Below, piece after piece: positions 1,883-61,219 of a stretch of 64,000 nucleotides of DNA. The position numbers and the translations under genes are program-made. Position 1 is the stretch's first letter. Each line of letters begins with the position of its first letter. The notes beneath the pieces are model-generated. The model had not been told where the DNA came from. It made no database searches and saw only the letters and a list, made by a program, of their open reading frames with translations. Origin of the DNA: Streptococcus gallolyticus subsp. gallolyticus DSM 16831 (lineage in GTDB: Bacteria > Bacillota > Bacilli > Lactobacillales > Streptococcaceae); the NCBI RefSeq assembly GCF_002000985.1, contig NZ_CP018822.1:452001-516000 (forward strand). Direction: 5' to 3'.

Positions 1883-3514
1883 GTGTCAGTAAATTGGCAA
1901 GAAATTGCTTTTAATTTTTTTGGAGGTCTAGGGCTCTTTCTCTTCAGTATTAAATACATGGGAGACGGTTTACAGCAGGCTGCTGGAGACAGACTTCGTT
2001 ATTATATTGATAAATATACGAGTAATCCTTTTCTAGGAATTCTTGTTGGTTTAGCCATGTCAGCTTTAATCCAATCAAGTTCAGGAGTGACGGTTATTAC
2101 TGTTGGGCTTGTGTCAGCGGGACTTTTGAACCTTCGACAAGCAATTGGAATCGTCATGGGTGCCAATATTGGAACAACGGTAACATCATTTTTAATTGGG
2201 TTTAATCTAGGAGACTATGCGCTACCGATGATTTTTGTTGGTGCTGCCTTGTTGTTCTTTACATCACGTCGAAGCTTGAATAACATTGGACGTATTATTT
2301 TTGGTGTTGGGGGAATTTTCTTTGCACTCAATATCATGAGTGATGCAATGGAGCCTTTAAAATCTGTTTCAGCTTTTCAAGATTACCTAGCAACCTTGGG
2401 CGATAAGCCAATTATGGGGGTTCTGATTGGGACAGGCTTAACCATGCTTATCCAATCATCAGCTGCCATTATTGGAATTTTACAGGGCTTGTATGCTGGT
2501 AATTTGCTTGACCTTCAAGGAGCGATTCCGATTCTTTTAGGAAGTAACATTGGGACGTGTATCACAGCTGTTTTGGCATCAATTGGTTCGAATATAGCAG
2601 CTAAACGTGTGGCAGCTGCCCATGTCCTTTTCAATGTGATTGGAACTGTGCTGTTTATGATCCTTCTTTTGCCATTTACAAGCTTAATGGAATGGATGCA
2701 ATCAAGCCTTGATTTAACACCAGCGATGACTGTAGCCTTTGCCCACGGAACATTTAATATCACTAATACCATTCTTTTGTTCCCATTCATTGGAACATTG
2801 GCTTATATTGTGACAAAACTAATTCCTGGACAAGACGAAGTAGCGAAATACGAAGCAATCTATCTCGACAAAATTTTGTTGAAACAAGCACCAGCTATCG
2901 CACTCGGAAATGCTAAAAAAGAACTTATTCACTTGGGTGCTTATGCGACACAAGCTTTTGAAGCGGCATTTCTATTTGTAGAAACGAGTAATGAAAAATA
3001 CGCTGATAAGACGCAAAAATTTGAAGATACGATTAATAATGTCGATGAAGAATTGACCAAATACCTCATTGAGTTATCAAGTGAACAATTGAATCAGCAT
3101 GAAAGTGAGATTCTTTCAAGTCTTTTAGATTCATCACGTGATTTGGAACGTATTGGTGACCATAGTATTGGTTTGGTTCGTTTGATGGAACACAATATTT
3201 CAAAAGATATTACGTTTTCACCAGCGGCAGTTAAGGAAATCGACCAACTTTACCATGAAACGCATCGTATGATTTTGGATGCTTTAAAGGTTGTTATTGA
3301 TAATGATCGTGAATTGGCTGACGAATTGGTGGAACGTCATAAAGATATTGCGCATTTGGAACGTCGTATTCGTAAGAATCACATCAAACGCATGAATAAT
3401 GGTGAATGTACACCGTTGGCAGGTATTAACTTTATTGACCTCATCACACCATGCACACGCATTACTGACCACGCTTTGAACTTAGTTGAAAAAGTCATTG
3501 AAGACCAAATTTAG
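1883..3514 (+). CDS. Na/Pi cotransporter family protein with C-terminal PhoU domain
   Basis: A 543-residue protein. It has two homologous NptA-type membrane repeats, marked by 'ALIQSSSGVT' and 'LIQSSAAIIG' (the QSS motifs that form the substrate site in SLC34/NptA proteins). A cytoplasmic helical PhoU-like domain follows from about residue 350, with 'DSSRDLERIGDHS' as the PhoU signature. It should import phosphate with sodium or respond to phosphate status. I chose the GTG at 1883 because GAGGA lies 7 bases upstream and because the longer frame adds 25 residues unlike the family. A hairpin terminator follows the stop. Confidence 0.85.
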   Translation: MSVNWQEIAFNFFGGLGLFLFSIKYMGDGLQQAAGDRLRYYIDKYTSNPFLGILVGLAMSALIQSSSGVTVITVGLVSAGLLNLRQAIGIVMGANIGTTVTSFLIGFNLGDYALPMIFVGAALLFFTSRRSLNNIGRIIFGVGGIFFALNIMSDAMEPLKSVSAFQDYLATLGDKPIMGVLIGTGLTMLIQSSAAIIGILQGLYAGNLLDLQGAIPILLGSNIGTCITAVLASIGSNIAAKRVAAAHVLFNVIGTVLFMILLLPFTSLMEWMQSSLDLTPAMTVAFAHGTFNITNTILLFPFIGTLAYIVTKLIPGQDEVAKYEAIYLDKILLKQAPAIALGNAKKELIHLGAYATQAFEAAFLFVETSNEKYADKTQKFEDTINNVDEELTKYLIELSSEQLNQHESEILSSLLDSSRDLERIGDHSIGLVRLMEHNISKDITFSPAAVKEIDQLYHETHRMILDALKVVIDNDRELADELVERHKDIAHLERRIRKNHIKRMNNGECTPLAGINFIDLITPCTRITDHALNLVEKVIEDQI

Positions 3515-4967: not shown

Positions 4968-5165
4968 TAAAGAGAGAAAGTCTCATGGTGTTTCTTAGCG
5001 AGTCCGAGGTGGTGGAAGTCGGATGAAACTGAAGTGAGTCGCTGGCGCTTTCGCTTAGCAAGGCTAAGTTAAAATCAGATAAATGAAGTAATAAGATAGG
5101 GTGGAACCGCGTTTTAACGCCCCTTATGAGGTATCATATGGGTGTGTTGGCGGTTTTTTATTATG
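4968..5165 (+). promoter_or_regulatory. T-box leader controlling glyQS
   Basis: A T-box riboswitch that senses uncharged tRNA-Gly and switches between termination and read-through. The signature AGGGTGGAACCGCG is at 5098-5111. Upstream is a Stem-I-like region with 'GAGTCCGAGGTGGTGG'. Downstream GGCGGTTTTTTA (about 5149-5161) completes a terminator that competes with the antiterminator formed by the T-box. A GGC triplet at 5044-5046 could be the glycine specifier, but I did not model Stem I fully. The leader fits the glycyl-tRNA synthetase genes that follow. Confidence 0.85.
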
Positions 5166-5187
5166 GAAAAACGTTAGCCTCCAAGAT

Positions 5188-5247
5188 ACGTCGCAAAAAT
5201 TAGTTATTAAAATAAGGAGTAAATACATGTCTAAAAAATTGACGTTT
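5188..5247 (+). repeat. First copy of the glyQ translation-initiation region
   Basis: A 60-bp segment carrying a ribosome binding site (AAGGAG), an ATG and seven more glyQ codons. It is repeated with a few differences at 5380-5438, where it forms the real glyQ start. The two copies are 192 bp apart. Confidence 0.85.
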
Positions 5248-5331
5248 TACCTAGGCAATGTCAGTAATCTCCTCATTTTAATTGGCAGTCGTCGAACTGA
5301 CAAACGGCAATCGCTATGGCGATTTGCCTAG
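5227..5331 (+). CDS. Possible 34-codon leader ORF from duplicated glyQ start
   Basis: The upstream copy of the glyQ start has a good ribosome binding site and an ATG (5227). It reads 'MSKKLTF' like GlyQ, then diverges and stops at TAG 5331. It would be translated whenever the T-box reads through. Whether it is a functional leader peptide or a by-product of the duplication cannot be told from sequence. Confidence 0.3.
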
Positions 5332-5379
5332 CCTATGCACTAGTCAGATTGTTTAAAAATAATCGTTTTGCCCAATCTG

Positions 5380-5438
5380 ACGTCGCAAATCAAGTTACTA
5401 AAATAAGGAGTAAATACATGTCTAAAAAATTGACGTTT
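5380..5438 (+). repeat. Second copy of the glyQ initiation region
   Basis: A 59-bp segment nearly identical to 5188-5247, containing the true glyQ ribosome binding site and first codons. The DNA between the copies contains two inverted repeats: CTAGGCAA/TTGCCTAG (5251-5258 and 5325-5332) and GTCAGATTG/CAATCTGAC (5343-5351 and 5373-5381). Confidence 0.85.
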
Positions 5439-6335
5439 CAAGAAATTATTTTGACTTTGCAACAATTTTGGAATGACCAAGGTTGTATGTTGATGCAAGC
5501 TTATGACAATGAAAAAGGTGCTGGTACAATGAGTCCCTACACTTTCCTTCGTGCCATTGGTCCGGAACCATGGAATGCGGCTTATGTTGAACCATCACGT
5601 CGTCCAGCTGACGGTCGTTACGGTGAAAATCCTAACCGTCTTTACCAACACCACCAATTCCAAGTGGTTATGAAACCATCACCATCAAACATTCAAGAAC
5701 TTTACCTTGAATCATTGGAAAAATTAGGAATTAATCCCCTAGAACACGACATTCGTTTCGTTGAAGATAACTGGGAGAACCCATCAACTGGTTCAGCTGG
5801 TCTTGGTTGGGAAGTTTGGCTTGATGGTATGGAAATCACTCAATTTACTTACTTCCAACAAGTTGGTGGTTTGCAAACAGGTCCTGTAACATCAGAAGTT
5901 ACTTACGGTCTTGAACGTTTGGCATCTTACATTCAAGAAGTGGATTCTGTCTATGATATTGAATGGGCACCAGGTGTTAAATATGGTGAAATCTTCCTTC
6001 AACCAGAATTTGAACATTCAAAATATTCATTTGAAATTTCTAATCAAGATATGCTTCTTGAAAACTTTGAAAAATTTGAAGCAGAAGCAAAACGTTGCTT
6101 GGATGAACACCTCGTACACCCAGCTTATGACTACGTTTTGAAATGTTCACACACTTTCAACTTGCTTGATGCGCGTGGTGCGGTTTCTGTAACAGAACGT
6201 GCTGGTTACATCGCTCGTATTCGTAACTTGGCTCGTGTTGTTGCCAAAACATTTGTGGCAGAACGTAAACGCCTTGGTTACCCATTGCTTGATGAAGCAA
6301 CACGTGAAAAATTATTGAAGGAGGATGCTGAATAA
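5418..6335 (+). CDS. glyQ: Glycyl-tRNA synthetase alpha subunit
   Basis: A 305-residue class II aminoacyl-tRNA synthetase subunit, the standard GlyQ length. With GlyS it charges tRNA-Gly in the bacterial alpha2beta2 enzyme. It contains the class II features '[20 protein letters not shown]' and '[14 protein letters not shown]'. The start at 5418 gives '[18 protein letters not shown]', the normal GlyQ N terminus; the longer upstream frame is spurious. The stop TAA overlaps the glyS ATG by one base, giving translational coupling. The T-box leader upstream controls the pair. Confidence 0.96.
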
Positions 6336-11626: not shown

Positions 11627-12985
11627 ATGAAAAGTGCTTTAAATATATTTGTTTCTATAGTTACTCAACCTGCCATTTTAGTAGCTCTCATTGCTTTAAT
11701 TGGTTTACTTTTACAAAAGAAAAAATTCTCTGATGTAATGTCAGGGACAATTAAAACAATAGTTGGATTTCTTGTTTTAACAGGTGGTTCAGGGATTTTG
11801 CAGAATGCCTTGGCTCCTTTTGCAAAAATGTTTCAAGTAGCTCTAAATACTCAAGGTGTTGTTCCTAGTAATGAAGCTGTTGTTGCGATTGCTTTACAAG
11901 ATTATGGAAGTCAAACAGCTTTAATTATGTTGGTTGGAATGATTGTTAATATTCTATTGGCACGCTTTACACGTTTTAAATATTTATTTTTAACAGGTCA
12001 AGCTATGATGTATGTTTCTTGTATTACAGCTGTTATTTTGATAAGTGCTGGTATCAAAGCGAATCCTATAGTTATCATACTTGGAGGGTTATTTGAAGGA
12101 ACGTTACTGACAATCACTCCCGCTCTTTGTCAACCTTTTATGAAAAAAATTACTGGTAATGATAATGTTGCCATGGGACATACAGGAAATATTGGTTATG
12201 CTATAGCTGGTTGGATTGGAAAATGGTTTGGTGATAAATCAAAATCTACAGAGGATATGGATGTTCCACAATCATTTAGTTTTCTACGTGATTCAACAGT
12301 ATCTATTATGTTATTAATGAGTGTAGTTTATGTCATCTTGGCACTGGCAGCTGGCACAGGTTATGTAGAAAAAGAATTGAGTGATGGAACAAGTGCGATT
12401 GTTTATGCAATTATTCAAGCAGGGACATTTACGGCAGGATTTGTAGTTGTTCTACAAGGTGTTCGTATGGTACTAGCAGAAATCGTTCCAGCATTTCAAG
12501 GTATTGCTAAAAAATGGGTACCAAATTCTAAACCAGCATTGGATGTGCCAATTATCTTTTCTTATGCACCAAATGCAGTATTGATTGGCTTTTTTACTAG
12601 TTTTATTGTTGGCACAATTTCAATGTTTATAATGATTGCTCTTCATACTACGGTTATTATTCCAGGTGTAGTTGGACACTTCTTCTGTGGAGCTGCAGCA
12701 GGTATTTACGGAAATTCTACTGGTGGTAGAAGAGGAGCTGTTCTTGGCTCTGCTGTTAATAGTTTACTTATAAGTTGGTTACCATTGGCTATTTTACCAT
12801 TACTTGGTTCTCTTAAAATGGCAGCTTCAACATTTGCTGATACAGATTATCTAATTCCAGGCTATATCTTAGGAAAAATTGGACAATTGGGGTCAGGTGC
12901 ACTTATTACAGCAATCCTCGCTTTTGTATTTATTGTAATTGTAATAAGTATTATTCTTGATAAACGAACAGATTCTGAATTGTAA
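11627..12985 (+). CDS. ulaA: PTS IIC component, UlaA/SgaT family
   Basis: A 452-residue membrane permease with about ten or eleven hydrophobic segments. It has the UlaA/SgaT signatures '[16 protein letters not shown]' and '[20 protein letters not shown]'. It imports and phosphorylates L-ascorbate or a related acid or sugar together with IIA and IIB. It is followed 13 bases later by a transaldolase-like gene. None of the ula catabolic genes (ulaD, ulaE, ulaF, ulaG) is nearby, so the substrate may differ. Confidence 0.85.
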
Positions 12986-35701: not shown

Positions 35702-36862
35702 TTACTTGATTGCACGCAAGAATGAATCAGTAACTTCACCGGCTACCTCGTCTTTAATATGCGTATATTGTTGTGTCATGTAAGATGTTGAATGTCCTAA
35801 AGCTACCGCCATATGCTCGATTGATACACCAGCAATCTGACCTTGTGTAGCAAAAAAGTGTCTCATCATATGAGGTGAAGCGTGAATTTCCGATTCAGCA
35901 CTTACTTTTTTGAAAATGGTAGCGATATGAGAATATTTTATTGGTTCACCTCTTCGTTTCTTGAGGTTTGCTCCCTCATCGACGAAAATAAAATCATTTT
36001 GTCCGAGAATTCTATTGCTTTCTTTGGCGATTCGTCTTGCAAACATCATGGCTTTTTGTAACAATTCTGTCGTCTCTTCGTCAAGCAACACATAACGTTT
36101 TGAGGTTCTTGTTTTCATTCTGCCGCCCTCTGGACGTCTTTCCGTTCTGCTTTCGTCCAAGAATATTCTAAAGCGTCCGTTCACCAAATTTAATGAGCTG
36201 AATTTAATACCTAAAACCTCACTTCGACGCAAGCCGAAATAAGTCAGTCTAGCCATAGTATAATCATAGCTGCTTAATATTTCACGAGCGCATTCGTCCC
36301 AAGCACGAAATTCCTCTAAAGACAATCGTTTCTTTTTAGTAGGAATATTGCTTTTACCAATATAGATTTTCAAAATAGGATTTTTGTCAAGATAACCATT
36401 TACAACAGCGTCAGTTACCATAGCTTCGAAAAGAGCATTGATTTGAATGACAGTAGCTCTTGAATAGCTATTTAATAAACTAGATATATATGCTTCGTAT
36501 TTTGTGCGTTTAATGTCTTTTAATAGCGTAGCACCAAATTGTTTACTAAAATGATGATTGTACCAACTTGTCTTTGTCATAACTGTATCTGGCGCCCAAC
36601 GCCCAGTTTTGATACGATTTTCGCTGTATATCTGCCAGTAATCGTTAACGGTCATGTTTTTACGGGGGTCGTAGTCACCATTTGCGATTTTGTTTTCGAT
36701 TTCAGCAAGTGCCTGTCTGGCTTCAGCGACTGTTTTTAAGCCACTAGCACTCACTTCTGTTTGCTTACCATGTAACTTGAATTTTCGGCGAACGTAGTAG
36801 CGTTTGCCTTTTTTAGTTTCATATGTGTATATATTTGGATATTTTGTCTTATTGTATTTCAT
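35702..36862 (-). CDS. int: Prophage site-specific tyrosine integrase
   Basis: A 386-residue tyrosine recombinase of the phage T12/Tn916-related group. An N-terminal arm-binding domain (about 1-60, 'YVRRKFKLHGKQTEV') and an SAM-like core-binding domain (about 65-165) come first. The catalytic domain has Arg in 'LRRSEVLGI', 'HMMRHFFA' (HxxR) and the nucleophile Tyr in 'TSYMTQQYTHI'. The ATG has AAGGAG close upstream. Being the outermost prophage gene, it marks the left boundary. Confidence 0.93.
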   Translation of the reverse strand: MKYNKTKYPNIYTYETKKGKRYYVRRKFKLHGKQTEVSASGLKTVAEARQALAEIENKIANGDYDPRKNMTVNDYWQIYSENRIKTGRWAPDTVMTKTSWYNHHFSKQFGATLLKDIKRTKYEAYISSLLNSYSRATVIQINALFEAMVTDAVVNGYLDKNPILKIYIGKSNIPTKKKRLSLEEFRAWDECAREILSSYDYTMARLTYFGLRRSEVLGIKFSSLNLVNGRFRIFLDESRTERRPEGGRMKTRTSKRYVLLDEETTELLQKAMMFARRIAKESNRILGQNDFIFVDEGANLKKRRGEPIKYSHIATIFKKVSAESEIHASPHMMRHFFATQGQIAGVSIEHMAVALGHSTSYMTQQYTHIKDEVAGEVTDSFLRAIK

Positions 36863-37043: not shown

Positions 37044-37709
37044 TTATTGCTTATAAGCGTTATCACAGGTGCGTAGACCCTCAATGTGAAGGCTTAGACT
37101 ATCTTTTATATGACTACCAAGAGGGTCTAAGACAAAATCAATCCCTTCTCGACGAGCAAGTTTTGCTGCAGGAACAAAGTCACTATCTCCAGCTATCAAT
37201 ACAATTTTATCAACTTGGTGTTTATAAGCTAAAGAAGCTATATCAAGACCTATACGCATATCAACACCTTTTTGTTGCATAGATAAGCTAAAGTCTTTTT
37301 CAGTTAAATCTTCAACAGTTATAGTATTATTTAATAATCTTTTAGTTGAACTTGGTTTTAAATTATAATGTACTGTTCCTTCACTTAATTCACCGAGCCT
37401 AAGAGCAACTTTACGTTTATGGCTCAATTCATTAAAGAAATCCTCAGTCCATGCCTTAGTTTCACTCTTACTAAAATCTATAGTTCTTTTTGATTGAGGA
37501 TGATAAACTTGTTTTGAAATAGGAGGACAGTCATAATAAAAAATTCTGTATAAATCATGACGGACTTCATCACCGTAGTTTGTATCTTTTAGATGCCTAT
37601 TACAATAACTATATAATTCGGTTGCTCTCTGCTTAGCAGTCAAATGTCCTAAGACAGTTGCTGCACGTTTCCTATAAAAGCCACCATCTACCAAAATTGC
37701 TATTTTCAA
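37044..37709 (-). CDS. NYN-domain (PIN-like) ribonuclease family protein
   Basis: A 221-residue protein of the NYN/DUF88 (LabA-like) group, a PIN-fold RNase family. Acidic residues in the right places are D8 in 'ILVDGGFY', D150 and D156 in 'KGVDMRIGLDIA', and D175/D177 in 'IAGDSDFVP'. The start is TTG 37709, with GGAGG 8 bases upstream. It sits in the prophage lysogeny module as likely cargo, behind a structured RNA and a consensus promoter. A role in RNA cleavage during defence or host interference is inferred, not shown. Confidence 0.75.
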   Translation of the reverse strand: MKIAILVDGGFYRKRAATVLGHLTAKQRATELYSYCNRHLKDTNYGDEVRHDLYRIFYYDCPPISKQVYHPQSKRTIDFSKSETKAWTEDFFNELSHKRKVALRLGELSEGTVHYNLKPSSTKRLLNNTITVEDLTEKDFSLSMQQKGVDMRIGLDIASLAYKHQVDKIVLIAGDSDFVPAAKLARREGIDFVLDPLGSHIKDSLSLHIEGLRTCDNAYKQ

Positions 37710-37726
37710 TCTTTATTCCTCCGAAA

Positions 37727-37803
37727 AATACAAAAAGCTCTTGATTTCGGCACTCCCCTTATGGTGGGGGGTCTACTCTCAAGAGCTGAACTAACTTTAT
37801 TGT
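37727..37803 (-). ncRNA. Structured RNA upstream of the NYN gene
   Basis: Starting about 7 bases after a consensus promoter, the transcript folds by a perfect 9-bp stem AGCTCTTGA/TCAAGAGCT (37787-37779 with 37744-37736 on the minus strand). The stem encloses a C4-6/G4 hairpin with an ACCATAA-type loop. U runs follow the closing stem, so it can act as a terminator before the NYN gene. The layout (promoter, small folded RNA, terminator, nuclease) resembles type III toxin-antitoxin and AbiF-type loci. No match to a known RNA family is claimed. Confidence 0.6.
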
Positions 37804-37809
37804 GTATTC

Positions 37810-37838
37810 ATTTTAGAACACTTTAATTTTTTTGTCAA
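37810..37838 (-). promoter_or_regulatory. Consensus promoter for the RNA and NYN gene
   Basis: Minus strand TTGACA, a 17-bp spacer and TAAAAT: near-perfect sigma-A spacing, stronger than most promoters in this prophage. Confidence 0.85.
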
Positions 37839-37857
37839 CTCTTTTGAGTAAAAAACT

Positions 37858-37974: not shown

Positions 37975-38769
37975 TTAATCTTCTAAACTATAATCATTTA
38001 CTGTAATTTGAATAGTTGAAAAAGTTTTATCTGTTGTAAATTCAAGGTTTCGTTTCTCGTTAGCCGCCCAGTCATTTTCATAAATTGTTTGAGTATCAAC
38101 GGTAGTTCCCTGATCATCAATTAACTTGATATCTAGAAATAAATATTCAAAGTTCAACTGAGTAGTATTTTCAGCAGTAGCAGTATAGATATAATATGAA
38201 AGAGATTCGTCTGAATTCGCTTCATCCAATGTAAATGTAAGAGAATCAGCAAATGATTTTATTGTATCTTCATTTTTGTTCTTTGTTTGAACTTCTTTTC
38301 CAGATGCTAACAATTCGTCTAAAATACTTTGGTTTTTTTCAGACACTTCAATTTTTTTGATATCATTGATTGCAATTAATTTTGAAGTTCTAGAATCATA
38401 ATGTTTTTCCCAATTATCATAAAATGAATCTGAACCATACGTTTTAGCAACTTCTAACCCATTTTTTAGTTCATTTATATAAGCTAAAGCAGCTTCTTTA
38501 AGTTTGCTATCTTTAAATTTAAGATCTTGGTATTTTTCAATAACATCAAGCTCTGTCTGAGTAGCTGTTTCGTATCCTTCTTCAGTCATTACAACATCAG
38601 CATTTGCTTCATCATCAGTATATGCCCATCTGGCATCTAATGCCTTTCCTAAATCAGTAACAAAATCATTATCATAATATTTCACTTCTTTTTTGGTTGA
38701 TGTTGTTCCACAGCCAGCAACAATAATACTAACAAATAATAAAGATATTACTAAAAACATTCTTTTCAT
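37975..38769 (-). CDS. Prophage-encoded lipoprotein
   Basis: A 264-residue secreted lipoprotein: signal peptide, lipobox 'IVAGC' (Cys 20), a helical region (about 35-170), then a beta-rich domain (about 185-264) resembling FxLyD-type domains ('NTTQLNFEYLFLDIKLIDDQG'). The ribosome binding site TAGGAG is good. Lipoproteins at this site in streptococcal prophages can block superinfecting phage DNA entry (Ltp of phage TP-J34), so exclusion is plausible. The sequence itself is not recognisably Ltp. It may be co-transcribed with the repressor-side genes. Confidence 0.6.
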   Translation of the reverse strand: MKRMFLVISLLFVSIIVAGCGTTSTKKEVKYYDNDFVTDLGKALDARWAYTDDEANADVVMTEEGYETATQTELDVIEKYQDLKFKDSKLKEAALAYINELKNGLEVAKTYGSDSFYDNWEKHYDSRTSKLIAINDIKKIEVSEKNQSILDELLASGKEVQTKNKNEDTIKSFADSLTFTLDEANSDESLSYYIYTATAENTTQLNFEYLFLDIKLIDDQGTTVDTQTIYENDWAANEKRNLEFTTDKTFSTIQITVNDYSLED

Positions 38770-39062: not shown

Positions 39063-39845
39063 TTACTTTTCTCTATAAATATCTACAACTTCCCCAATAG
39101 TCCTAATGTTATCATTTTCGGATAATGGAATATCATCGTATTCCTTGTTTAATGATTCTAAATAATCACCTTTTAATTTCTTGACGTAATTTTCACCGTT
39201 AACTTTAAAAATCCCGATTTTATTTAAATCGACTTGGTCTGTTAGCTTGATAAAAAGGAAATCACCATTTTTTATTTTGGGTTCCATTGAATGACCAACG
39301 ACGATAGCGATAGTATCATACTCGTCTTCATCTGGTATCTCATCAGCGTCAAAGTCAACCATTGTGTCATAATCATCTTCTTGCCAGTAGCCAGTCCCTG
39401 CCGATACTTTACCAGGAGCAGGTAAGCTCACTCGTTTTCTCGTATCATATTCAGCGCGTTTTTCTTGAATATCAATAACTTTACCTTGCTCTTCAGCTAG
39501 AAGTTTTTCAGATGTCTGCACAAGTTTATTTTTACGATTATCATTTAACTTATTATAGTTAGATAGTAAAATCGCTTGACGAGGGTCAAAGTTGACTTTG
39601 GTTATGTTTTGTTTTGGTTTCGCTGATTCAATTGGTGGAAATAAGTCATCAATTGAAATATCGAAAGCGTTAGCTAAAGCATACATAGTATCTTTTTTAG
39701 GAGAACGGAAACCACGTTCATAATTTCCTATAGCATTTTTACCGATGCCAATTTTCTCGCCTAATTCAGTTTGAGTCCAATTATTTTGTTTCCTATATTC
39801 TTTTATTTTATTTCCGATAAATTTGGCAATTTCTTCTTTATCCAT
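39063..39845 (-). CDS. Prophage repressor (XRE HTH plus S24 peptidase domain)
   Basis: A 260-residue CI/LexA-type repressor. The HTH is at about residues 20-48 ('WTQTELGEKIGIGKNAIGNY'). The S24 domain has A149-G150 as the probable autocleavage site, S186 in 'GHSMEPKIKNGD' and a lysine in 'NYVKKL' as the catalytic pair. It should hold lysogeny and be inactivated by self-cleavage during the SOS response. I chose ATG 39845, as GAGG lies 8 bases away; the GTG 39854 and ATG 39851 are too close to the site. Confidence 0.9.
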   Translation of the reverse strand: MDKEEIAKFIGNKIKEYRKQNNWTQTELGEKIGIGKNAIGNYERGFRSPKKDTMYALANAFDISIDDLFPPIESAKPKQNITKVNFDPRQAILLSNYNKLNDNRKNKLVQTSEKLLAEEQGKVIDIQEKRAEYDTRKRVSLPAPGKVSAGTGYWQEDDYDTMVDFDADEIPDEDEYDTIAIVVGHSMEPKIKNGDFLFIKLTDQVDLNKIGIFKVNGENYVKKLKGDYLESLNKEYDDIPLSENDNIRTIGEVVDIYREK

Positions 39846-39875
39846 ATTCATCACCTCTTTTCTTACAACATAATA

Positions 39876-41408: not shown

Positions 41409-41584
41409 TGAATATCTTTTTTGTAACAATTATTGTCAGCTCCGTGACAGCAATGTTAACATCTATGATTGCTATGAAATTTCATTTAATTATGTTAAAA
41501 AAATGGCTTGCCGATTTTTTCGACAAGCAAGATCTATGGTTACATGATCATTTTGAAAAATTAGCACAAAAGTTATTCCGATAG
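41408..41584 (+). CDS. Small membrane protein (58 residues)
   Basis: A coupled ORF (TAATG) preceded by AAAGGAGGG. One N-terminal membrane helix ('FFVTIIVSSVTAMLTSMIAM') is followed by a charged tail. Its last 12 bases overlap the convergent Abi-alpha-like gene. Function unknown. Confidence 0.5.
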   Translation: MNIFFVTIIVSSVTAMLTSMIAMKFHLIMLKKWLADFFDKQDLWLHDHFEKLAQKLFR

Positions 41585-42361
41585 ACAAATATCGTAAAGA
41601 TCAGACCCAAGTGGTGAAATGTCAATTATTCCTTTAACAATATGTAGAGATTCATTGTTATTTTTATTAATATATGAATTCTTATAAGCTTCTGTAAGTG
41701 GGTTATTTTCAAGTAATGAATATCTGCTTTCTTTTGTGAGCCATGTTGCGAAGTCTACTTTTATCAAGCCAAGTCTTTCCAAATTGCTTATTGAAGTGGC
41801 GTGTCTGTCGAAATCAAAGATGGAGTCATCGACTGCTTCATGAAGATTTTCACAAGGAATAAAAACTAAATTTTTTAATGGGTTTGTAGATTGGTTATCA
41901 AATTGTATTGCATATTGCGCCACAGGAAATCTCCCTGCCTTCGCAATTGTGATTAAATTTTGAGCATCTAATGGGCTCATTTGCTTAATAATTTCAACAA
42001 ATGAATGGTGAAGTTGTGGGTTTTTGGAAGAATCAAACGAAGAAGCTAACAAAGATGCAAACATTTCTCTAATGTTTTCTTCTTCAATATAAAATTTTGA
42101 TGCTTCTAACGCTGGTCCAAGGATACTCATTTTAGGTTCTTGGATATGTTCAATAGGAATTTTCTCTACTTTTTCAGTAAGTGACTTAATGTATTGCTCG
42201 TTATCTATTCTGCGTTTTTCATTTTTTCTTATTAAAAAACTGTCAATAGAACCGAAAACATATTTCCATGCCTCATTAAACGTATTAGCTGGCGCTTCGG
42301 CTCCTTTTACTGCCATTGTTGTGGCAAAAGAAGTCAAAATTGTTGGTAACAGTTCATCCAT
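41573..42361 (-). CDS. Abi-alpha/DUF4393-like protein (second minus-strand cassette)
   Basis: A 262-residue helical protein. The segment 'MSILGPALEASKFYIEEENIREMFASLLAS' followed by 'HHSFVEIIKQMSPLDAQNLI' is the hallmark of the DUF4393 family, now called abortive infection alpha. Such proteins are tied to phage resistance. ATG 42361 follows AGGTG; the GTG 42370 is upstream of it. A minus-strand TGATATAAT (42389-42397) gives it its own promoter, so the prophage can express it during lysogeny. Confidence 0.7.
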   Translation of the reverse strand: MDELLPTILTSFATTMAVKGAEAPANTFNEAWKYVFGSIDSFLIRKNEKRRIDNEQYIKSLTEKVEKIPIEHIQEPKMSILGPALEASKFYIEEENIREMFASLLASSFDSSKNPQLHHSFVEIIKQMSPLDAQNLITIAKAGRFPVAQYAIQFDNQSTNPLKNLVFIPCENLHEAVDDSIFDFDRHATSISNLERLGLIKVDFATWLTKESRYSLLENNPLTEAYKNSYINKNNNESLHIVKGIIDISPLGSDLYDICLSE

Positions 42362-42416
42362 AGTATACACCTCACATTTTTTGCTTCCATTATATCAAAT
42401 TTAGAAAGGAGACAAG

Positions 42417-61087: not shown

Positions 61088-61219
61088 GAGAAAAGATAGA
61101 GGTTGAGAATCTGTCACCAACACGCCGCTTAGCTAGCGGGTCAGAAATGCGGGAGCCTCGACAGTCCCGCCTATCTTATTACTATTTGCGCTTAGAGTTA
61201 TAATCTAGGCGCTTTTTTT
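61088..61219 (+). ncRNA. tRNA-like cloverleaf RNA with own promoter and terminator
   Basis: The RNA (about 130 nt) has a 7-bp closing stem AAGATAG/CTATCTT (61093-61099 with 61171-61177). Inside are three hairpins: GTTG/CAAC (61102-61121, 12-nt loop), CCGCT/AGCGG (61125-61139) and GCGGGA/TCCCGC (61149-61170). The last hairpin abuts the closing stem as a T arm does in tRNA. A 9-bp terminator GCGCTTAGA/TCTAGGCGC plus seven T residues ends it (61188-61218). The T-loop consensus is absent, so it is not a normal tRNA. No known family is claimed. Confidence 0.65.

Follow-up and report, generated by a model that had tools for sequence, protein, structure and literature searches.

In C. difficile, the AbiF-RCd22 system is laid out as a SigA promoter, an RNA, a terminator and a toxin gene, with a read-through transcript, and is carried by a prophage; the RCd22 RNA is reported to bind AbiF directly and thereby to neutralise it, both in cis and in trans (PMC12373285). 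Among NYN proteins, a CRISPR-associated ribonuclease of B. fragilis cleaves single-stranded RNA in vitro in a Mn2+-dependent and sequence-nonspecific manner, as described in the accessible part of the paper (PMC11346440). A third point of reference is an RNA. TEG147 is a 60-nt RNA tabled as a bona fide sRNA expressed in S. aureus HG003, although the accessible part of the table shows no Northern or end mapping entered in its row (PMC5826253). It sits on a genomic island according to the available text of a 2011 paper (PMC3053349), and its Rfam entry arose from a training course (PMC7779021, available in part). No function for Teg147 was found in the literature searched, and the accessible parts of these three papers contain no link to an NYN protein. 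Likewise, no account of an NYN nuclease paired with a small RNA was found in a literature search covering mostly open-access papers.

We analysed a window of 64,000 nucleotides from Streptococcus gallolyticus subsp. gallolyticus DSM 16831, in which a promoter, a small RNA, a terminator-like stem and an NYN nuclease gene follow one another on the minus strand.

Architecture of the locus

The features of the locus are as follows.

39063..39854 (-), S24/HTH repressor, upstream (Pfam Peptidase_S24 2.5e-20, HTH_3 6.9e-18)
37833..37838 (-), -35 hexamer TTGACA (promoter scan and sequence)
37810..37815 (-), -10 hexamer TAAAAT, 17-nt spacer from the -35 hexamer (promoter scan)
37731..37791 (-), RNA hairpin, Rfam RF03535 (TEG147) (covariance models)
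37779..37787 (-), stem I, 5' arm AGCUCUUGA (fold; the homologous stem covaries)
37774..37777 (-), core AGUA, 5' side of the internal loop (conserved in aligned homologues)
37755..37769 (-), apical stem CCCC/GGGG with loop ACCAUAA (fold; 82.5% of cells paired in 57 homologues)
37746..37748 (-), core GAA, 3' side of the internal loop (conserved in aligned homologues)
37736..37744 (-), stem I, 3' arm UCAAGAGCU, terminator-like, runs into the U run (fold)
37724..37735 (-), U runs UUUU G UA UUUUU behind stem I, individually 37735-37732 and 37728-37724 (sequence)
37718..37722 (-), Shine-Dalgarno-like GGAGG, 8 nt before the TTG (sequence)
37044..37709 (-), NYN nuclease gene, 221 aa, TTG start at 37709, phrog_5783
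35702..36862 (-), phage integrase, downstream (Pfam Phage_integrase 1.3e-21)

The first-pass annotation had described a TTGACA-17-TAAAAT promoter, a perfect 9-bp stem around a C/G hairpin followed by U runs, and an NYN-domain gene with a TTG start, in the order promoter, small RNA, terminating stem and nuclease. Each element was found, on the minus strand and in that order. The promoter (37838-37810) matched 11 of 12 consensus positions. Taken alone it is not beyond chance, because two promoter-like sites were present in the 401 bp of the locus compared with 1.2 ± 1.2 in shuffled sequences. In the homologues described below, a promoter with at least 9 of 12 matches lay within 70 nt upstream of 57 of the 80 NYN-linked RNAs, compared with 20.6% of letter shuffles. 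As a set, the promoters are therefore above chance, and the family backs the one in the window.

The nine perfect pairs of stem I enclose the CCCC/GGGG inner hairpin. The 61-nt RNA folded at -22.1 kcal/mol (z -4.16), and none of 200 shuffles was equally stable; with its flanks (107 nt) the z-score was -2.45 and 3 of 200 shuffles reached the same stability. A simple terminator scan, which considers loops of 3-8 nt only, returned no site at the locus; a stem and a U run are present. Direct repeats of 10 nt or more were absent from positions 37700-37850. The RNA passed the gathering score of RF03535 (58.3 versus 56.1 bits; E=2.2e-9 over the window) and is thus a member, narrowly above threshold, of a known family. 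Our own covariance model (R1), which has the window sequence among its 57 builders, placed it at 37788-37734 with 67.7 bits and gave one match in the whole genome.

An RNA of S. hominis, with the length and fold of the window RNA, also passed the RF03535 threshold (63.9 versus 56.1 bits). It was the only one to do so among 17 homologue loci scanned, at which no further Rfam family matched the RNA, so RF03535 covers a small slice of this RNA family. Because the S. hominis RNA precedes an NYN gene and S. aureus has proteins of this family with 70-73% identity to the window protein, Teg147 probably lies upstream of the S. aureus NYN gene. The module proposed below, if right, would supply a functional hypothesis for Teg147.

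The window protein matched the NYN family PF01936 (E=2e-11; 45 bits against a gathering cut-off of 24.2) and missed the cut-off of the NYN family TIGR00288 (24.6 versus 178.45 bits, NCBIfam). Its fold was assigned as NYN/PIN-like and MARF1-like by structure comparison; a sequence-profile search of the PDB gave a single match at E 0.59 and was not used. The MARF1 NYN domain and VPA0982 (2qip) share 16-17% identity with it over 142-154 of its 221 residues, and about 80 of the 221 fall outside the alignment with the MARF1 NYN domain. D8 was kept in all 81 homologous translations, D60, D150, D156 and D177 in 79 and D175 in 77, the set including two very short translations (21 and 38 aa). In a set of 47, D8, D60, D150, D156 and D177 were invariant, and we take the predicted catalytic residues to be among these five.

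Other genes and RNAs were noted in the window. Between the repressor and the NYN module, a gene at 37975-38769 (-) appears lipoprotein-like by eye and matches PHROG 34415 at 4.8e-138, with no Pfam match. An Abi_alpha protein is encoded at 41573-42370 (-) (Pfam 1.8e-50; PADLOC PDC-S47 8.2e-46). Its gene, a second candidate for a defence function, lies about 4 kb upstream of the NYN module and may share an element with it. Rfam also recorded a skipping-rope RNA near tRNA-Ser at 61092-61178 (+) (49.8 bits) and the Streptococcus sRNA SpR19 at 4988-5119 (+) (79.5 bits).

Linkage and conservation of the RNA

A search of 84,980 species genomes by short patterns, which finds only proteins containing them, yielded 137 NYN relatives, of which the best 80 were kept, several of them near-duplicates. 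These loci came from Streptococcus, Staphylococcus, many Clostridia, Actinomycetota, Treponema and Akkermansia, as well as Planctomycetota, Pseudomonadota, Geobacteraceae, Bacteroidota and Omnitrophota. We take them to represent about eight phyla, judging from organism names. A hairpin of similar build was present upstream of NYN in all 79 readable loci among these best 80 of 137; the sequence of the remaining one (L010) starts at the gene. A T-rich stretch followed the hairpin in nearly all 79 (in L050 it is A-rich instead), and the RNA was in cis, with the protein match beginning 3-92 nt (median 27) after it.

The covariance model was built from 57 sequences, the window's included, and these sequences are also among those it found. 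In 81 sources (671 kb) it gave 70 matches at E<=10, each directly upstream of NYN: 66 of the 81 sources had E<=0.001 and four were weaker, the E-values being rough, and others were recognised by eye. No match was obtained in 11 sources: L010 and ten that have diverged, of which seven are Bacteroidota. When nine Bacteroidota RNAs were aligned, stem I was similar and the inner loop different. A search starting from the nuclease in 398 Pseudomonadota genomes gave 20 NYN carriers, the centre genome included. The RNA was found upstream in 14 of them by the model (13 at E<=0.002, one at 0.09) and in four more by eye; it was not seen in the other two (L380, L393). The covariance-model check suggested in the first-pass annotation thus located the fold upstream of close and distant homologues alike. 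This linkage makes the RNA a near-obligate partner of a widespread family of NYN nucleases. What is new is the pairing of hairpin and NYN gene across about eight phyla, the RNA being named only as a staphylococcal sRNA in the papers found. The earlier remark that no such arrangement was described for NYN proteins therefore agrees with the literature searched as far as the pairing goes, and fails for the RNA itself, which is RF03535/TEG147.

The outer stem covaries. In stem I, 90.4% of cells were paired (73.1% in shuffles), double changes numbered 139 (33 in shuffles) and the covariation score was 0.618 (0.268 in shuffles), each value being reached by none of 500 shuffles. The number of pairs with a double change was 12 compared with 9.7, a value reached by 27 of 500 shuffles. 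When the partner was shifted by one column, the covariation score of stem I fell to 0.27 or less. Within the internal loop, AGUA was present in 45 of the 57 aligned homologues and its U in all 57; opposite it, GA was found in 49 and GAA in 30. AGUA opposite GAA is what we take to be the textbook consensus of the bulged-G (loop E, or sarcin-ricin) motif, and the inner loop appears, on its letters, to be a bulged-G-like core. By eye, a short 5' inverted repeat and a UAAU-like linker stand just before stem I in some loci (e.g., L008, L102 and L129); a UAAU-like sequence was counted in 39 of 80 NYN-linked RNAs (30% in shuffles) and in 14 of 23 other RNAs (26% in shuffles).

Few parts of the RNA are as conserved as the unpaired core, and no variable unpaired stretch was seen in the alignment beyond the apical loop. 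A guide role, which the first-pass annotation had allowed for, is unlikely because of these two properties. They also bear on the broader explanation that the nuclease depends on the RNA, as a cofactor or guide, to activate or direct it. Near-obligate linkage and a conserved core that looks like a protein contact are what such a ribonucleoprotein would present, and the approximately 80 residues outside the MARF1 NYN alignment could serve RNA binding. Nevertheless, the alignment offers no variable unpaired guide stretch, and RNAs without an adjoining nuclease persist intact (see below); we regard this explanation as quite improbable. An ordinary intergenic terminator with no function of its own would account for the stem and U run. 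However, a terminator needs neither an unpaired core conserved across phyla nor the promoter-like sequence that precedes the RNA above chance, and a plain terminator was judged highly improbable.

Annotated records carrying the NYN family were inspected for 6 of 15 phages and 4 of 167 plasmids. The covariance model matched seven of the inspected records, that of Thermus weakly (E 0.027); the Javan85 record is the same sequence as one of the genome loci. The E. coli and Proteus phages showed a diverged hairpin by eye and the Campylobacter plasmid a degenerate core. Blastn of two RNAs against phages and plasmids gave weak matches only (E 0.3 or more). E. coli phage ev099 and a Proteus phage both carry the NYN gene immediately after a LexA-family repressor. 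On its other side in ev099 is an N-like gene, which presumably puts NYN in the place that rexAB has in lambda. A query taken from the lambdoid-phage NYN locus was covered to at least 80% in 73 of 5,426 complete E. coli genomes. In Streptococcus phage Javan85 the NYN gene is located between a regulator and an integrase, and plasmid NYN genes lie near relaxase or traG genes. The 167 plasmid records included 136 from Campylobacter, and 128 of the 167 were predicted to be conjugative. At the homologue loci, 15 of 121 flanking ORFs matched phage integrases (at most one ORF per side, with 12 near-duplicate, cut or broken loci excluded). Since many flanking ORFs are ordinary chromosomal genes, not every copy lies in an evident mobile element.

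RNAs without an adjoining nuclease

Searches starting from the RNA gave 5 real matches in 398 Bacillota genomes, 9 in 398 Pseudomonadota genomes after one was dropped, 17 in 391 Clostridia genomes and, by core patterns in viral contigs, at least 23 with 39 bits or more; the viral-contig loci L313-L348 lay outside the covariance-model search. Three weak matches, L088 and L089 in Bacillota and L360 in Pseudomonadota, were read by eye as plain hairpins or attenuators and dropped. Matches of 22.1 bits or less (L120, L130, L111, L094 and L302) were excluded from the count, as were two viral loci that end before the next gene (L099 and L235), which left 52 classified RNAs, the two copies in L107 being counted separately. 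The next gene was NYN in 27, an NYN remnant in 2 and neither in 23. The remnants were L198, with a large deletion, and L354, with the start only. From position 11926 onward in L198, an intact RNA is followed by NYN pieces with a large internal deletion, as if the nuclease gene were decaying and the RNA being kept.

The 23 RNAs without NYN were as well preserved as the 27 linked ones: median scores were 52.5 and 50.6 bits (P=0.90), and 8.04 and 8.07 of the 9 stem pairs were formed, respectively, compared with 5.54 in shuffles. Decayed copies are missed in both sets, because the same score threshold cuts both. Diverged RNAs linked to NYN escape the strict whole-genome scan, so the ratio of 27 to 23 overstates the share without NYN: the scan overlooked the RNA of G029, later found at 23.5 bits, and of the 20 NYN carriers in Pseudomonadota it detected 4. 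The centre genomes (G000, G398 and G399) supply three of the 16 NYN-linked RNAs that come from genomes. One genome (G585) has both a lone RNA (L355) and a separate NYN gene with its own RNA (L386). In L129 the sequence behind the RNA extends for 369 nt, and in L149 two NYN segments that overlap in different frames were kept separate. With 23 of 52 classified RNAs lacking NYN, an RNA tied to NYN alone was ruled out. The asymmetry stands: the nuclease is rarely without the RNA, whereas intact RNAs without an adjoining nuclease occur in many genomes. The frequency of the latter was not foreseen by the first-pass annotation.

These observations bear on the explanation that the RNA is an autoregulatory leader only, which the nuclease would bind or cut to set its own level, with no antitoxin role in trans. 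The position of the RNA in cis at a short distance before the protein match in the 79 NYN loci, its conserved core, its terminator-like stem and the Rfam class of RF03535 (Cis-reg) all agree with a leader. On the other hand, the 23 of 52 RNAs with no NYN behind them score as well as the linked ones, and a discrete 60-nt transcript is tabled for S. aureus in the available part of PMC5826253. We consider it unlikely that the RNA is a leader and nothing else.

The genes that follow RNAs without NYN encode a SLFN_AlbA_2 protein 18 nt behind the RNA (L084), a PBECR3 nuclease (L363), an AbiLi-type AAA protein (L374), RelA_SpoT (L127), a HicB-like protein (L366), RelB (L087), a DUF2281 protein (L355) and Peptidase_M78 (L353). 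In L107, one RNA copy precedes two small ORFs and AbiD and the other a 289-aa reading frame. On the reverse complement of L107, a stretch of a few hundred bp that contains promoter and RNA appears to be duplicated (about 2794-3159 and 5164-5530); by eye, repressor-like and SIR2-like proteins lie upstream and an integrase-like ORF downstream. For the protein behind the RNA in L105, PADLOC gave PDC-S42 and NCBIfam a putative phage structural protein; it was not counted as defence because the labels disagree. Six RNAs without NYN precede integrase or phage late genes by eye (L097, L100, L218, L365, L367 and L376). Also by eye, those of L100, L218, L376 and L365 adjoin phage packaging or lysis genes.

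Such neighbours raise the possibility of a portable leader, a general attenuator, responsive to infection or stress, that controls whichever effector follows and is common to unrelated defence genes. Toxin-antitoxin or defence-like genes of other kinds (SLFN_AlbA_2, PBECR3, AbiLi-type AAA, AbiD, RelA_SpoT, HicB-like and RelB) follow at least 7 of the 23 RNAs that lack NYN, and each of the two copies in L107 stands before a different gene. No pairing recurred, however, in searches that reach close relatives only: the L363 (PBECR3), L107 (AbiD) and L084 (SLFN) proteins gave no second RNA-linked case in viral contigs, and for L363 and L084 phages gave none either; AbiD matched nothing but itself and PBECR3 had no match. 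Two of five SLFN-like phage records were inspected and contained no RNA. Furthermore, the non-NYN genes start approximately 60-260 nt away, AbiD approximately 640, the 18 nt of L084 being the exception. Because pairings did not recur in these limited searches, most gene starts are distant and about as many RNAs precede integrase or late genes by eye, we rank a portable leader lower and think it improbable.

A candidate RNA-protein module and its relatives

The reading we prefer, in which we place about even confidence, is a type III-like RNA-protein toxin-antitoxin or abortive-infection module, in which a single hairpin would both attenuate the nuclease gene and act as an antitoxin in trans. 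It builds on the promoter, the covarying fold, the near-obligate linkage, the conserved acidic residues, the prophage and plasmid settings and the lone intact RNAs, all read from sequence. One promoter would give an RNA of roughly 60-70 nt. The outer stem and U run would end most transcripts, leaving the RNA in excess, and occasional read-through would yield the NYN ribonuclease. The nuclease would bind the bulged-G-like core of the RNA and be kept silent. If the balance were upset, by phage take-over of transcription or by loss of the element, free nuclease would cut RNA and growth would stop, which may protect against phages. The asymmetry between RNA and nuclease fits a toxin and its antidote, as an antidote may stand alone and a toxin rarely can. 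Decay would be expected of a guide that has lost its enzyme or of a leader that has lost its gene; the lone RNAs are intact, and this favours an antidote. The core is unusually conserved for an antitoxin and fits a regulatory leader equally. If the toxin-antidote reading is true, lone intact RNAs would be elements carrying the antidote without the toxin, for which the RNA mimicry by which a phage reportedly evades ToxIN is a precedent. Because the core is conserved, the predicted contact between RNA and protein is open to direct test.

A bolder extension, which is speculative and rather unlikely, is that this bulged-G (sarcin-ricin-like) fold is a pan-bacterial antidote to RNA-cutting toxins. 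It would mimic their target, perhaps a bulged-G site like the sarcin-ricin loop of 23S rRNA, attenuate the toxin gene, and be carried by phages and prophages, alone or before other RNases or abortive-infection genes, as an immunity or counter-defence RNA.

Type III systems (ToxIN, CptIN and TenpIN) resemble the locus in having an RNA upstream of a predicted ribonuclease gene on the same strand under one promoter, a terminator-like stem between RNA and gene, and mobile-element settings. They differ in that the toxin candidate here is an NYN protein of PIN-like fold, which we compared with the folds we presume for type III toxins. They differ also in that the window RNA is without tandem repeats, which belong to the definition as given in PMC12373285. 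Because both of these defining features fail, the module was not filed under type III, although on the preferred reading it would operate like one of these systems; the gene order that the first-pass annotation had likened to type III holds.

The likeness to AbiF-type loci, also drawn in the first-pass annotation, is apt, and AbiF-RCd22 is the closest published mechanism among the papers found. According to the accessible text of PMC12373285, AbiF-RCd22 shares with the window locus the order of promoter, RNA, terminator or terminator-like stem and toxin or nuclease gene as well as the prophage setting. The window nuclease and RNA are unrelated to their AbiF-RCd22 counterparts, and the window RNA is the simpler of the two. 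Its toxin, unlike the window NYN protein, belongs to Abi_2/AbiD/F, and its RNA has two abiF motifs and a separate terminator, whereas the window RNA is one hairpin that is itself terminator-like (PMC12373285, same text). The abiF motif RF03085 gave no match in the window by cmscan up to E 10. The B. fragilis NYN ribonuclease is located in a type III CRISPR locus, and no leader RNA is mentioned in the available part of PMC11346440.

VPA0982 (2qip), the structural relative, is titled as of unknown function. The window and S. hominis RNAs match TEG147 in length and fold. That a conserved RNA lies next to a defence-like gene has recognised precedents, namely the abiF motif and the DUF3800 motifs in Rfam, the latter presumably lying before DUF3800 genes. 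If the toxin-antidote reading is true, RNA-antitoxin systems would gain an NYN (PIN-like) nuclease class together with a compact one-hairpin RNA, distributed over about eight phyla.
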